NCBI GenBank assembly: GCA_017626035.1 | Contig: JAGAJR010000017.1 | Span: 149,628-213,627, forward strand | Direction of reading: 5' to 3' | Length of the DNA: 64,000 nucleotides | Origin: Alphaproteobacteria bacterium | GTDB taxonomy: Bacteria > Pseudomonadota > Alphaproteobacteria > RF32 > CAG-239 | In this document: positions 25,563 to 30,239 of the stretch, piece by piece | Layout of the letters: each line of letters starts with the position of its first letter | How positions within the stretch are numbered: position 1 is the first letter of the stretch | The notes under the pieces: generated by a model | What the model was told of the DNA's origin: nothing | The model's input: only the letters and a program-made list of their open reading frames with translations | Database searches by the model: none | Translations under genes and position numbers: made by a program

Positions 25563-27011
25563 TTACCGATTTCTTTCAGCCAAAGCAATATCTATCATTT
25601 TAATCCGAGGTACAGCCGGCTCGGTAAGCTTTGACAATGTCTGAGAAACATTATTAACAGGCTGCCATCCCGTCGCGGCCAATAAAGTCCCATCGTTCAT
25701 ATTATTTATTCTGTAAGCTTGGGCAAAATTCGCATATTCATTATTGCGAAAATCTTCACTTCCACGCTCGCTGACATTGGCAACCGTTCCACTGTTTTTC
25801 ATACCGACAAAATACTCTTCCGCATCGTCAATATGTTCGCCGTTTTGAGAGAAAACTTTCACCTTACCCGGGTTTTCTCTATCCCGCATGGCCACAACGG
25901 CATGAAACCCGCTTCCCGTTCTATTGCCCTTGGACTTGTGAACTACCAGAAAAACAGAGTTTGGATTACTTTCCAGCTGGGCATTGATTTCATCCAGCAG
26001 ATTAGAAGTTTCAACCACCTGTCTCGGTTTGTTCAATTTCTCTGCACTGCTTTGCAGCAAAGCCATTCCTTCTTCGGAAAGCTTATCTTTATCCAAAGCC
26101 TTAAGCCCCGGAGTACCTAATGCCTTTTGGGCACCTACAAACAGTTTTTGTCGGTCTTCAACAGACAGAGTGTCATTGCCCAAACTTTCCATATAAGCGG
26201 CAATTTCACGACAGGACTGTGTGGTCGGGCTCTTATGTACATGTTTCTTGACGGCATTCAAGAATGCACTTAAATCTTTTGTTTCGGCAGAAACCGGAAG
26301 GCTGTTAAGATAACTGTTAATTTCCTGATCAAAATCTTTTAAATCCACATTTTCTTTTAAACCATTCACGACACTCGGGCAATAATGTATGTTATCAATA
26401 CATTTGTTCAGATAAGCAAATTCCGAACACCCGGTTTCCTGTGCCGTTTGGTTCATGGCCGAAATGCTGGCATAAGCACAATAAAAACGAACATTAATGC
26501 TTTTACCGTATAATTTTCTTAAAATAGAAGCCGGTGCCCGTCCTTTTCTGGGAGTTACCTTCTTAATCGTCGTTATGTTATCCGTCAGGCGGTCATACAC
26601 ACCATCATAAAAAGTCTGCTGACGCTGTTGAACATAAGCATCAAAAGCAGAATCAATCTGCTGCTGTATTTGGGCTTCTCTTTTTGTTTCCGCGGCATTA
26701 AAATCTTCCACATTGTCATAAACTTCCACTCCGCCGCTGCTTTTAAAACTTCGAACATCTTCAATATTATTTCCCGACTTGAAAAAAACGTCATCGCCGG
26801 TTTGATGCTTAACATCGGTAGAAGCACTTATCGGCAACGGCAATGCCGCTATTGCGGAAATTTCGATGATTTTGTTTAATAAAAGAGATTTTCGCTCAAG
26901 AATGGCCTTAGTTTTACGCTCCAACGTATCTTTGGCTCTTTTGTATTTGATGGCGGCAATTCTCTCCAAATTTGATTTTTTGGGTATTTTTTTACTGTTT
27001 TTCTCAGTCAT
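25563..27011 (-). CDS. Candidate secreted papain-like cysteine peptidase
   Basis: This 482-residue protein has a long basic N-region (1-40) followed by a hydrophobic stretch (about 45-62, IIEISAIAALPLPISAS) fitting an unusual signal peptide or membrane anchor. A possible papain-type triad is visible in the right order: Cys178 (FYCAYASISAMNQ), His370 (GSGFHAVVAMRD) and Asn390 (FSQNGEHID). Between them lies a helical insertion with several cysteines. No family is recognised, so peptidase activity is inferred. Start at 27011 is chosen because GGGGGAG lies 10 bases upstream. It is divergent from the retropepsin-like operon. Confidence 0.5.
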   Translation of the reverse strand: MTEKNSKKIPKKSNLERIAAIKYKRAKDTLERKTKAILERKSLLLNKIIEISAIAALPLPISASTDVKHQTGDDVFFKSGNNIEDVRSFKSSGGVEVYDNVEDFNAAETKREAQIQQQIDSAFDAYVQQRQQTFYDGVYDRLTDNITTIKKVTPRKGRAPASILRKLYGKSINVRFYCAYASISAMNQTAQETGCSEFAYLNKCIDNIHYCPSVVNGLKENVDLKDFDQEINSYLNSLPVSAETKDLSAFLNAVKKHVHKSPTTQSCREIAAYMESLGNDTLSVEDRQKLFVGAQKALGTPGLKALDKDKLSEEGMALLQSSAEKLNKPRQVVETSNLLDEINAQLESNPNSVFLVVHKSKGNRTGSGFHAVVAMRDRENPGKVKVFSQNGEHIDDAEEYFVGMKNSGTVANVSERGSEDFRNNEYANFAQAYRINNMNDGTLLAATGWQPVNNVSQTLSKLTEPAVPRIKMIDIALAERNR

Positions 27012-27188
27012 TTTACATAGACTCCCCCTATATTTTGTTTCATTTATTCCGTTCGTTTTTACTTTATCATATCCATAGAAAATATCCACCAAAAATTTTA
27101 TTAATACCCATTAAAATTAACTTTACTTTTATGACGTTTTGAGCATAAATAGATGTAATTTTTAACATAAAGAAATTATGGCAGGGTT

Positions 27189-27716
27189 ATGAAATTTATA
27201 TCAAAATTCTTTTTTGTATGTGTGGCGGCCGTTCTTCTCCCGTCTTGCAAAACTCAAGTTACTCCGGCAATTGTTCCGGCTGTGGAAGTAAAAAAGCCCA
27301 GCGGATATCCTTTGGGGATTATCGGAGCCGTTGAACCGGCTTATATTCTGCCGATGAAATCTCAGTTTTTTTCCCGTATTGACACCGGAGCCGAAAACTC
27401 ATCCATCGACGTGGACAATAAAAAAACTTTTGAACGGGACGGCGAAAAATGGGTTTCTTTTGATATTACAAATCGGGAAACCGGAGAAAAGCACCATTTT
27501 GAAAAACCGGTTATCCGTCAGGCGACCATTAAACGTATTCACAAAGACGAAAAAAGAACCGTTGTTTCCATGGATTTGAAAATCGGCGATAAAATTATTA
27601 CCGAAAACTTTTCCCTCGCCCATCGCGACAAGTTTGAATATCAGGTTCTTATCGGCAGAAACATCCTGACCGGAAGGGCTTTGGTGGACACCTCCCTGTC
27701 CAATACTCTCAATTAA
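27189..27716 (+). CDS. Retropepsin-like lipoprotein (RimK-associated 'Zn_protease' family)
   Basis: The 175-residue protein has a lipoprotein signal ending VLLPSC (Cys20) and a domain of the family once called ATP-dependent zinc protease (PF05618). The sequence shows an aspartyl-protease motif, FFSRIDTGAENSSIDV, and a second conserved block IGRNILTGRALVD. No zinc site is seen, so a homodimeric retropepsin fold is more likely. It would sit on the periplasmic face of a membrane. It is the first gene of a three-gene operon with a transglutaminase-like membrane protein and an ATP-grasp ligase. Confidence 0.82.
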   Translation: MKFISKFFFVCVAAVLLPSCKTQVTPAIVPAVEVKKPSGYPLGIIGAVEPAYILPMKSQFFSRIDTGAENSSIDVDNKKTFERDGEKWVSFDITNRETGEKHHFEKPVIRQATIKRIHKDEKRTVVSMDLKIGDKIITENFSLAHRDKFEYQVLIGRNILTGRALVDTSLSNTLN

Positions 27717-27736
27717 TTATAAAAGGCATATCAAAT

Positions 27737-29275
27737 ATGTTAAAAAAATTTGCTTCGGTCAGGTTTATCCTTTCTCTCGGTTTAATACTCTCCATTATCT
27801 TTGCCGCCTATAACGCATATTACAAAATAAAATACTGGGGTTTCAACATTACTCCGAAAAAAATGACCGATGTTTGGACCATTGAAACACACATCTCTTT
27901 TGAACCGACCGGAGAACCGATTAAGGTTTCAATAGCCTCCCTTTCGTCAAGCAAAGAATTTAAAATTCTGGATGAGAACATTATCGCTCCCGGATACAAA
28001 ACCAAAAAACAAAAAAAAGACGGCGACAACCGTTTGATTTTGACCACCTCTGCCAAAAACGAACCGCAAGATATTTATTACAGAGTTTTGTTGTTTGACA
28101 ATGAAGACGGCAAAGGCAAAATGACGGCTCCCGTTCCTCCTGCCCCGCAGAAACCCGTTTTGGACGAGCAGCGGACAGCTATTGCCCAAGAGTTGATTGT
28201 TCAGGCCGAAAAACTGCAAGGGGACATGCCGCAGAAATTTATCCGTCTTTTAAACCAAACACCGCCAAACTCCACTGTCCAATCCTTCTTTCCGGTTCGC
28301 AAAACCCAACAGGATATTGCCGAAGCATTATCTTCCCTGTTATCCATTAAAGGAGTTCCGAACAGAATCGTTAAAGGAATTAAATTGGAAGAAGACAAGA
28401 AATCATTCAATCCGGATTTTATGTTGGAAGCTTATACAGGAAGCCGTTGGAAACTTTATAACATAAAAACAGCCCAAGTCGGAATGCCTGAAGATTTCAT
28501 TATTCTTCAAAGGGGCAACGCTGCTCTGCTTGATGTTGAAGGAGGCGAAAATTCTTCCGTCAAATTCTCGGTTTTGAAATCCATCAGTTCTTCTTTCAAT
28601 CTTGCCGGAAAGCGAGCTAAACTTGCCGACCAGAAAGCGTCTTTTGAGTTTTCAATCTTCAACCTTCCGCTTTTGGAACAAAATACCTTAAAATGGCTGA
28701 TGATTTTCCCGCTGGCTATTTTGGTTATTGTGTTAATGCGTAACGTCATCGGAATTCAAACCATGGGAACATTTACGCCGATGCTGCTTTCCATGGCTTT
28801 AGTCAAAACAGGATTTTGGCCGGGATTAATTTGCTTTACGGTTATTATCGGTATCGGCCTCATTATCAGGGCTATGCTTTCCAAACTCAACCTGTTGTTG
28901 GTTCCGAGAATTTCCGCAGTGGTTATTTTCGTTATCCTGATTATGCAGGTTATGACAATCTGCGGATATCGTTTCAGTTTGGAAATCGCTTCTTCCGCCG
29001 TGTTCTTCCCTATCATCATCATGGCTTGGATTATTGAAAGAGCCTCCATTACCTGGGAGGAAGACGGACCGATTAATGCCGGAAAAGAAGTGTTTAACAG
29101 CACCCTCGTTGCCATTATTACCTACTTTATCATCAGCAGCGAATACATCCGCCATATTATGTTTGCATTTAACGAACTTAATCTTGTCATTTTGTTTATC
29201 GTCATGCTTTTAGGAACTTATACCGGATATCGTCTGACGGAACTGAAACGTTTCAAACCTCTGGCAAAGGACTAG
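27737..29275 (+). CDS. Inactive transglutaminase-like domain fused to seven membrane helices
   Basis: In this 512-residue inner-membrane protein a single N-terminal helix (about 12-30) leads to a large extracytoplasmic part with a transglutaminase-like domain (about 160-270; FFPVRKTQQDIAEALSSLLS). The usual catalytic cysteine is absent, as in the family named for it. Seven or so helices follow from about 315 to 500. The family always accompanies the retropepsin-like and ATP-grasp proteins; its biochemical role is not known. The stop is 4 bases before the next ATG, so translation is coupled. Confidence 0.85.
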   Translation: MLKKFASVRFILSLGLILSIIFAAYNAYYKIKYWGFNITPKKMTDVWTIETHISFEPTGEPIKVSIASLSSSKEFKILDENIIAPGYKTKKQKKDGDNRLILTTSAKNEPQDIYYRVLLFDNEDGKGKMTAPVPPAPQKPVLDEQRTAIAQELIVQAEKLQGDMPQKFIRLLNQTPPNSTVQSFFPVRKTQQDIAEALSSLLSIKGVPNRIVKGIKLEEDKKSFNPDFMLEAYTGSRWKLYNIKTAQVGMPEDFIILQRGNAALLDVEGGENSSVKFSVLKSISSSFNLAGKRAKLADQKASFEFSIFNLPLLEQNTLKWLMIFPLAILVIVLMRNVIGIQTMGTFTPMLLSMALVKTGFWPGLICFTVIIGIGLIIRAMLSKLNLLLVPRISAVVIFVILIMQVMTICGYRFSLEIASSAVFFPIIIMAWIIERASITWEEDGPINAGKEVFNSTLVAIITYFIISSEYIRHIMFAFNELNLVILFIVMLLGTYTGYRLTELKRFKPLAKD

Positions 29276-29279
29276 TCTG

Positions 29280-30239
29280 ATGTTTGGAAAACTCTTCTCT
29301 TCCTATGCCTCTCCGTCCAGCTTGAAAAAAGCCGGCGTATTGGGAATGAACAGCCGAAACTATAACTTCATTTCCAAGTATAACCGCCGTGATTTATACC
29401 CTTTGGTAGATGATAAGGTTCAAACAAAAATTCTGGCAAACAAAATCGGAATTAACACTCCGGGACTTATCGGAGTTATTGAATATCAGCATCAGGTTGA
29501 CAATATTCTCAACATTGTCAAAGATTATAAAGAATTTGTCATCAAACCGGCTCACGGCAGCGGCGGAAAAGGCGTGCTGGTTATTAAAGGGTATACTCCT
29601 GACGCATTTACCAAAGCCTCGGGAGAAGTTTTGTCCTATAATGAAATTTATCAGCATATTTCCAATATTCTCAGCGGATTATACAGCTTGGGCGGAAAAT
29701 ATGACGTGGCCGTCATTGAAGAGCTGGTTCATTTCAGCAATATCTTCAAAGATTACAGTTTTCAGGGAATTCCCGACGTCCGCGTTATCGTGTATAAGGG
29801 GTTTCCGGCTTTAGCCATGATGAGGCTGGCAACGAAAATGTCCGGAGGAAGAGCTAATCTCCACCAGGGAGCTGTCGGGGTCGGGTTAGATATCAGCACC
29901 GGTTCCGCCTTGAAAGCCGTGATGAGAAATGTCCCTATTCATCTTCATCCCGACACGCATGCCGAACTTAACAAAATTCAAGTTCCAAACTGGAGAGAAC
30001 ATTTGGAGATTGGTGCCAAAGCTTATGAAATGACAGGTCTGGGCTATTTGGGAGCGGACATTGTTTTGGATGCGGATCGCGGCCCGATGATGCTGGAATT
30101 AAATGCACGTCCGGGGCTGGCCATTCAAATCGCCAACGGTATCGGTTTGGCCGGTGTTCTGAAAAATATCGACGACACTTATCCGTCCGGATTAACCGCA
30201 CAACAGCGTGTTGATTTTGTTCTCGGTAAAAAATCTTAA
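29280..30239 (+). CDS. RimK-like ATP-grasp ligase (alpha-L-glutamate ligase-like)
   Basis: The 319-residue cytoplasmic protein is an ATP-grasp enzyme: KEFVIKPAHGSGGKGVLVIK (ATP-binding lysine and glycine loop, about 82-101) and MMLELNARPGLAIQIAN (metal-binding Glu and Asn, about 270-286). Such enzymes join a carboxylate to an amine through acyl-phosphate. RimK itself adds glutamate to S6; this subfamily (TIGR02291 type) has no established substrate. With the two membrane-facing partners it probably makes or attaches a peptide or amino-acid tag that the others handle across the membrane. Confidence 0.88.
   Translation: MFGKLFSSYASPSSLKKAGVLGMNSRNYNFISKYNRRDLYPLVDDKVQTKILANKIGINTPGLIGVIEYQHQVDNILNIVKDYKEFVIKPAHGSGGKGVLVIKGYTPDAFTKASGEVLSYNEIYQHISNILSGLYSLGGKYDVAVIEELVHFSNIFKDYSFQGIPDVRVIVYKGFPALAMMRLATKMSGGRANLHQGAVGVGLDISTGSALKAVMRNVPIHLHPDTHAELNKIQVPNWREHLEIGAKAYEMTGLGYLGADIVLDADRGPMMLELNARPGLAIQIANGIGLAGVLKNIDDTYPSGLTAQQRVDFVLGKKS

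Follow-up and report, generated by a model that had tools for sequence, protein, structure and literature searches.

An rlo operon and a divergent, predicted-exported NlpC/P60-CHAP-like cysteine peptidase candidate in a family of Alphaproteobacteria

The rlo operon, which is linked to envelope stress, was described in 2025 in Pseudomonas aeruginosa by Lormand et al. (PMC12239564). The main text of that paper reports that Pseudomonas RloA cleaves, in vitro, reporters with 8 or 10 consecutive Glu residues but not those with 6 or fewer, and that a triple rloA mutant, besides failing to grow under hypo-osmotic conditions, shows defects related to antibiotics, biofilm and shape; β-lactam sensitivity is among the Rlo phenotypes. 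Deletion of rloB or rloC is epistatic and restores the growth of rloA-less Pseudomonas fully and the other defects partly. A role of Rlo in peptidoglycan homeostasis is suggested there, and its physiological substrate is given as an open question (PMC12239564). Here we describe an rlo operon in a 64,000-nucleotide stretch of DNA from an alphaproteobacterial gut bacterium (the window; contig JAGAJR010000017.1, positions 149,628‒213,627), where it stands back to back with a divergent gene, hereafter PAP, for a candidate cysteine peptidase or amidase. We consider, with a probability of roughly 0.5, that the locus is an rlo operon plus an accessory exported PAP acting in the same envelope process, most likely on peptidoglycan.

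A preliminary description of this DNA had listed four open reading frames (ORFs), all of which are present, and had characterized the three plus-strand genes as a ligase, an inactive transglutaminase-like membrane protein and an aspartyl-protease-like lipoprotein, in agreement with the profile searches. Its remark that this set is functionally unexplained no longer holds in view of the Pseudomonas study, as reported in its main text (PMC12239564). rloA (27,189‒27,716, plus strand) encodes a retropepsin-like aspartic peptidase, probably a lipoprotein, which matches Pfam PF05618 (retropepsin, named Zn_protease) with 100.7 bits at a cut-off of 27. The product of rloB (27,737‒29,275, plus strand), an inactive-transglutaminase/7TM inner-membrane protein, matches PF14400 (88.5 bits) and PF14402 (281.4 bits), both over cut-off. 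rloC (29,280‒30,239, plus strand) starts 4 bp after the end of rloB, and its ATP-grasp, alpha-L-glutamate ligase-like product matches PF14397 (ATP-grasp, 295.8 bits) and, in NCBIfam, TIGR02291 (427.9 bits, over the cut-off of 314.2). Judged from these matches, the three genes are rloA-rloB-rloC, in the same order as in P. aeruginosa. RloB matches the NCBIfam model NF052267 (inact_TG_RloB) over nearly its whole length (residues 15‒512), but its 280 bits are below the cut-off of 900, and the RloA3, RloA, RloA2 and RimB models match RloA with 57‒101 bits, all below their cut-offs of 200‒280. Since RloA and RloB, unlike the P. aeruginosa proteins, are below these narrow cut-offs, we claim an Rlo-type operon and not those named models. 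RloB is found in 119 of the 126 genomes of the window's taxonomic family versus 48 of 299 genomes sampled across the phylum.

The RimB-RimK system, which acts in RpsF polyglutamylation, shares with this locus the logic of a retropepsin and an ATP-grasp glutamate ligase, and the RimB model NF052261 matches the window RloA with 57 bits. However, the cut-off of that model is 200, the window has an RloB-type membrane protein, and RimB is cytoplasmic whereas the window RloA carries a lipoprotein-type signal, a hydrophobic N-terminus ending in LPSC.

The DTG motif of the window RloA lies at residues 65‒67. We tested the poly-Glu coordinating residues K46, R92, R114 and R137 (P. aeruginosa RloA numbering) by alignment to chain 9g58, in which Arg occupies the R92, R114 and R137 positions of the window RloA and also replaces K46 there. 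Equivalents of D48-T49-G50, R114 and R137 are kept in all 115 family RloAs, window included, as in P. aeruginosa. In contrast to P. aeruginosa, the K46 position is Arg in all 115, and the R92 position is Arg in 70, Lys in 32 and another residue in the remaining 13. As far as the alignment tells, those Arg residues that matter for poly-Glu cleavage in Pseudomonas are present in the window RloA as well. Periplasmic RloAs have been described with two disulfide cysteines (PMC12239564); the window RloA lacks them, and its sole Cys residues, 11 and 20, lie in the signal region.

A further difference from the P. aeruginosa operon is the extra divergent PAP (25,563‒27,011, minus strand, 482 aa). The minus-strand ORF extends over 25,563‒27,092, and the ATG at 27,011, preceded by GGGGGAG, is the likelier start than the TTG at 27,092. 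The Cys-His-Asn order of the preliminary description is borne out as C178, H370 and N390, the candidate catalytic residues. In PAP alignments of 45 and 44 sequences, window included (the fragment L226 was excluded from alignment A3), Cys and His do not vary, and Asn is conserved to at least 90%; among 47 divergent-ORF rows, the C...H...N pattern has Cys in 45, His in 46 and Asn in 45. The best Pfam match of the window ORF has an E value of only 0.14, with no PF00877, CHAP or Peptidase_C1 up to E = 1, and scans of the PAPs against NCBIfam and PHROGs gave scattered weak matches only (TIGR02594 in 3 of 44, best 6e-4). PAPs are 11‒24% identical to the window protein, versus 57‒71% for 22 RloBs. 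By these scans, PAP is a fast-evolving family that Pfam, NCBIfam and PHROGs do not confidently name. All 45 PAPs have a net-positive N-terminal stretch followed by a hydrophobic one (residues 48‒62 in the window), the mean hydropathy of the N-terminal 15-mer exceeds 1.3 in 34, and a few members show comparable hydrophobic stretches further along. PAP is likely exported, as these N-termini suggest.

Such fast divergence might also be expected of a secreted papain-like enzyme with an antagonistic or host-directed role, resembling type VI amidases or effectors, that is kept at this site by chance. In a PDB profile search with PAP, the best of three matches, a weak one (E = 0.019), is type VI amidase effector 2, and Tae4 and papain-like effectors occur as structurally similar entries among the lower rows of the comparisons of PAP models given below. 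However, PAP keeps a fixed place by an envelope operon in 10 genera, and no immunity-like partner gene was noticed near it, although no systematic search was made. We regard an effector at this site as very improbable.

The fold of PAP was predicted by AlphaFold2 for the window protein with 43 relatives (predicted local distance difference test score, pLDDT, 72.5; predicted template modelling score, pTM, 0.62) and for the relative L172 placed first with 35 others (pLDDT 81.3, pTM 0.70), and VIA-align was run on the candidates of Foldseek. The top 25 VIA-align rows of the L172 model carry mostly the titles of NlpC/P60, MepS/spr, CwlO and phage endolysin/CHAP proteins at Z 9.6‒8.1, including 4fdy (Z 9.6, 2.8 Å over 117 positions), MepS 8xup (Z 9.4, 4.5 Å over 125 positions), Spr 2k1g (Z 8.9), CwlO 8wt3 (Z 8.8) and the LysK CHAP domain 4csh (Z 8.5). 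The window model matches endolysin Lys2972 (Z 9.6, 3.5 Å over 134 positions) and NlpC1 (Z 8.0) best and LysGH15 (6.8) and LysK (6.7) less well, with staphopain, C39-like and other papain-like families in lower rows. On these models, a papain-like fold of PAP is well supported. The assignment to the NlpC/P60-CHAP sub-family is held at moderate confidence, because VIA-align warns that models lacking a clear match often reach a best Z of 7‒8. In a profile comparison of the 45 PAPs with 32 NlpC/P60 domains by hhalign, the catalytic Cys pairs with Cys and His with His at a score of 25.9 (E = 0.0026), and none of 60 column shuffles scored as high (maximum 14.3).

PAP is thus like the NlpC/P60 endopeptidases (MepS/Spr, CwlO and the gamma-D-Glu-diamino acid enzymes, Z 8.6‒9.6 among the best structures of L172) in predicted fold and in the alignment of Cys and His. 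Unlike them, the window PAP gives no PF00877 match and has a long insert between Cys and His and extra N-terminal helices. From these models, we file PAP as probably working like NlpC/P60, not as a PF00877 member. With CHAP domains and endolysins such as LysK, LysGH15 and Lys2972, the last of which we take to be of CHAP type, it shares the Cys-His-Asn type and a similarity of predicted fold (Z 8.2‒8.7 for L172); unlike them, the window PAP lacks a CHAP match in Pfam and would belong to a stress operon as an accessory instead of being a lysin. We set aside the view that PAP is closest to papain C1-type proteinases, as NlpC/P60 and CHAP rows top the L172 list. The papain-like label given earlier to the divergent gene therefore stands for its fold, but a papain-type proteinase that removes a tag is the less likely reading. 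Since the predicted fold is closest to NlpC/P60 and CHAP peptidases, most of which hydrolyse the cell wall, PAP is more likely directed at peptidoglycan. As a separate observation, canonical PF00877 proteins are rare in the window's family, occurring in 2 of 33 genomes (G000‒G032) versus 29 of 76 in a class sample.

The same structural matches bear on another role, in which PAP would be a second eraser or maturing enzyme of a glutamyl conjugate made by RloC, cutting an isopeptide or amide bond beyond the reach of the poly-Glu aspartic peptidase RloA. The papain-fold matches include a gamma-D-glutamyl-diamino acid endopeptidase (2evr, Z 8.6 with L172) and, very weakly, the Gsp amidase 3a30 (Foldseek E = 4.4), and RloC passes the alpha-L-glutamate ligase-like model. 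On the other hand, Rlo works without PAP in Pseudomonas and most rlo loci here are without PAP, and we consider such an eraser role unlikely. The system of ligase and peptidases proposed earlier, which would add and remove a peptide tag, fits the published Pseudomonas genetics, although PAP is less likely the enzyme that removes the tag.

The link between PAP and the three rlo genes, a conjecture of the preliminary description, was followed across genomes and is supported: that description had named, as one refutation, a lack of the triad beside the gene in all relatives, and many relatives have both side by side. The sample was the window and the rlo loci of 116 other family genomes (5 of 12 stretches plus 111), and a divergent ORF was counted if it has at least 280 aa and starts within 260 bp of rloA. 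Such an ORF is found at rloA in 46 of the 116 loci; with the window, 45 of the 47 form one homologous group by blastp, and the other two (L111 and L147), being non-homologous, were dropped. A hidden Markov model (HMM) of PAP, built from this same group and therefore a count of it rather than a fresh test of homology, finds the gene beside rloA in 47 of the 112 loci that could be determined (5 more are cut). These belong to 10 genera (g1, g2, g6, g7, g9, g10, g11, g12, g13 and g14 in our numbering), and the PAP HMM found none at rloA in the determinable loci of g3, g4, g5, g8 and g16. The relatives show the same divergent layout as the window, where 27,012‒27,188 separates PAP from rloA. PAP is at rlo in 43 of 80 named loci, mostly from metagenome-assembled genomes including gut and rumen ones, which are largely the same genomes as the 112-locus set and not an independent sample. 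In one locus (L233, 3,055‒4,092 and 4,237‒5,274), PAP is duplicated in tandem beside rlo. Another (L240, JAISVX010000003.1, 3,810‒5,246) has the rlo and PAP arrangement typical of the alphaproteobacterial family, and its label 'Lactobacillaceae bacterium' is probably wrong.

Among the 126 family genomes, all 49 with a PAP match above 100 bits have RloB, and 47 of these carry PAP at rloA. In one exception (G109) the contig with RloB ends; in the other (G080) the copy nests among the rlo-linked PAPs of g11 with the porin gene still adjoining, which suggests that the rlo position is older and the break later. None of the 7 RloB-lacking family genomes has a strong PAP (hypergeometric 0.028), several of them being incomplete and all related. 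Nine further genomes of the order were picked by profile match, and four (G126, G128, G135 and G142) have PAP beside RloB. A search with the single PAP sequence matches 13 of the 126 family genomes, and a first scan of genome contigs returned nothing, while the PAP profile matches 66 of 126. With the profile, matches occur in 4 of 289 genomes of a class scan and in 75 of 153 genomes of an order scan; three and 74 of these, respectively, belong to the family of the window.

The reading of the locus as an rlo operon with an accessory wall enzyme can be put as a sequence of steps. RloC would ligate glutamate(s) onto an acceptor in the cytoplasm, RloB would present or move the product at the inner membrane, and RloA, as a periplasmic lipoprotein, would trim glutamate-rich stretches. 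PAP, on the periplasmic side, would hydrolyse an amide bond of the same envelope material, with peptidoglycan as the likeliest site. Here we infer the steps of RloB and RloC, the export and the substrate of PAP, and the functional coupling. If PAP cuts a wall amide on the periplasmic side, the gene neighbourhood would tie Rlo to cell-wall maintenance. The Rlo phenotypes of hypo-osmotic death, β-lactam sensitivity and altered shape are wall-like and favour a wall role of PAP, in agreement with the published idea of Rlo in peptidoglycan homeostasis (PMC12239564). The main text of that paper mentions none of NlpC, papain, cysteine protease, Alphaproteobacteria and MepS, and a literature search, with most subscription journals and bioRxiv preprints outside it, found no paper naming both NlpC and retropepsin.

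Several observations weigh against this reading. For the fold, Foldseek alone gave nothing at E ≤ 0.001 with the PAP models; in the window model, the NlpC/P60-CHAP rows are not set apart, and many papain-like families follow at Z 5‒8. The hhalign probability for PAP and NlpC/P60 is just 11%, and a control profile of peptidyl-prolyl isomerases scores 21.9 with PAP and 23.5 with NlpC/P60, near the 25.9 obtained. Pfam NLPC_P60 matches 4 of 45 PAP members at E < 1 (best 8e-4), amid comparable noise. For export, 11 of the 45 PAPs, including most of g10 and a few others, have only a weakly hydrophobic N-terminus. For the link with Rlo, a motif search of upstream regions gave no evidence of PAP-rlo co-regulation, and a genome of another family of the order (G152) carries a pair of adjacent PAP-like ORFs (347 and 393 aa; L283, 7,130‒8,173 and 8,483‒9,664) and no RloB match. 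Outside the family, the PAP HMM has no match in 24 rlo neighbourhoods. These were called in a sample of 26 loci (L256‒L281), of whose flanking ORFs 90 of 131 were Pfam-scanned with 25 of 145 Pfam families visible; NlpC/P60 neighbours are possible there, and ORF calling was mechanical and poor in GC-rich genomes. PAP is also missing from rloA in 65 of the 112 determinable loci of the family, and therefore Rlo does not need PAP, which is an accessory. Finally, synteny around rlo changes slowly in the family, where the order porin-rloA-rloB-rloC-isomerase is found in much of it, and an adjacency may be inherited without a function.

The last two points also speak for an explanation in which nothing but inherited synteny keeps PAP next to rlo; PAP would then be a secreted enzyme unrelated to Rlo, and the promoter region between them would be divergent incidentally. 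The RloB tree requires at least 14 changes of PAP presence or absence, and PAP is far more divergent than RloB, in line with this explanation. However, strong PAP was never found without RloB in the family genomes given above, and PAP stays at rloA where the adjoining porin gene was not found. The porin gene lies on the far side of PAP within 2.6 kb in 28 of 46 PAP loci and elsewhere in 2; it was not found at 16, some short or cut by contig ends, which include all 10 of g9, and there the PAP-rloA adjacency persists. We conclude that this adjacency has been retained, with losses or regains more than once, and we take inherited synteny alone to be a possible but somewhat unlikely account. A quickly built PAP tree, whose branches are long, places the window PAP together with five PAPs of g12 (98% support in the Shimodaira-Hasegawa-like approximate likelihood ratio test), whereas the window is nearer g16 and g9 in the RloB tree. 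Since the two trees disagree on the place of the window, transfer of PAP is possible.

PAP, an accessory gene whose product has a predicted fold like that of cell-wall peptidases, occupies its divergent place at rloA in 10 genera. From a lineage other than that of Pseudomonas, this genomic evidence points towards peptidoglycan as the context of Rlo, and PAP offers an enzyme to test on the question of the physiological substrate of Rlo. A more specific version is speculative and, we think, unlikely. In it, Rlo would reversibly glutamylate a target linked to peptidoglycan, either a stem peptide or an enzyme of the wall; RloA would shorten the glutamate chain, and PAP would act in this cycle as a cysteine amidase on the wall side. 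If true, the rlo locus would encode the writer, transporter and eraser of a cell-wall modification that has not been seen so far.

Upstream of rloA, the window has a promoter-like element, TTTACT-N18-TAAATA (27,122‒27,151, plus strand), which a sigma-70 consensus scan missed and which recurs in relatives. Within 200 bp upstream of rloA, and with the window not counted, the motif TTTAC-N16..20-TA[AG]AT is present in 25 of 46 PAP loci and 20 of 65 non-PAP loci; on the reverse strand it occurs in 1 of 111. The element probably serves as the promoter of rloA and is uninformative on PAP. The search for a motif common to PAP and rloA returned this element only, which is present also without PAP.

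The block is flanked by an OprB-like porin gene (24,289‒25,530) and by a cyclophilin-type isomerase gene (30,321‒30,965). A terminator-like hairpin (25,535‒25,557, minus strand) lies just 3' of PAP, before the porin gene; the consensus scan that gave it found 9 terminator-like sites in the region versus 5.4 in shuffles.

Distant PAP-like domains were also observed between the transmembrane clusters of membrane ORFs of 923‒1,082 aa at the four loci examined (L289, 4,611‒7,382; L290, 4,531‒7,548; L291, 3,455‒6,703; L293, 4,138‒7,029). One operon, that of L289, was scanned, and the ORFs on either side there resemble TrbL/VirB6 at scores around the cut-off of 25.9 bits (29.0, 24.0 and 17.8 bits). 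An ORF of this type may be a component of type IV secretion into which a papain-fold domain is built. Enzymes that cut the wall are often part of secretion channels. By this analogy, PAP-like domains beside secretion-type ORFs would fit a peptidoglycan role, though they are no proof of it.

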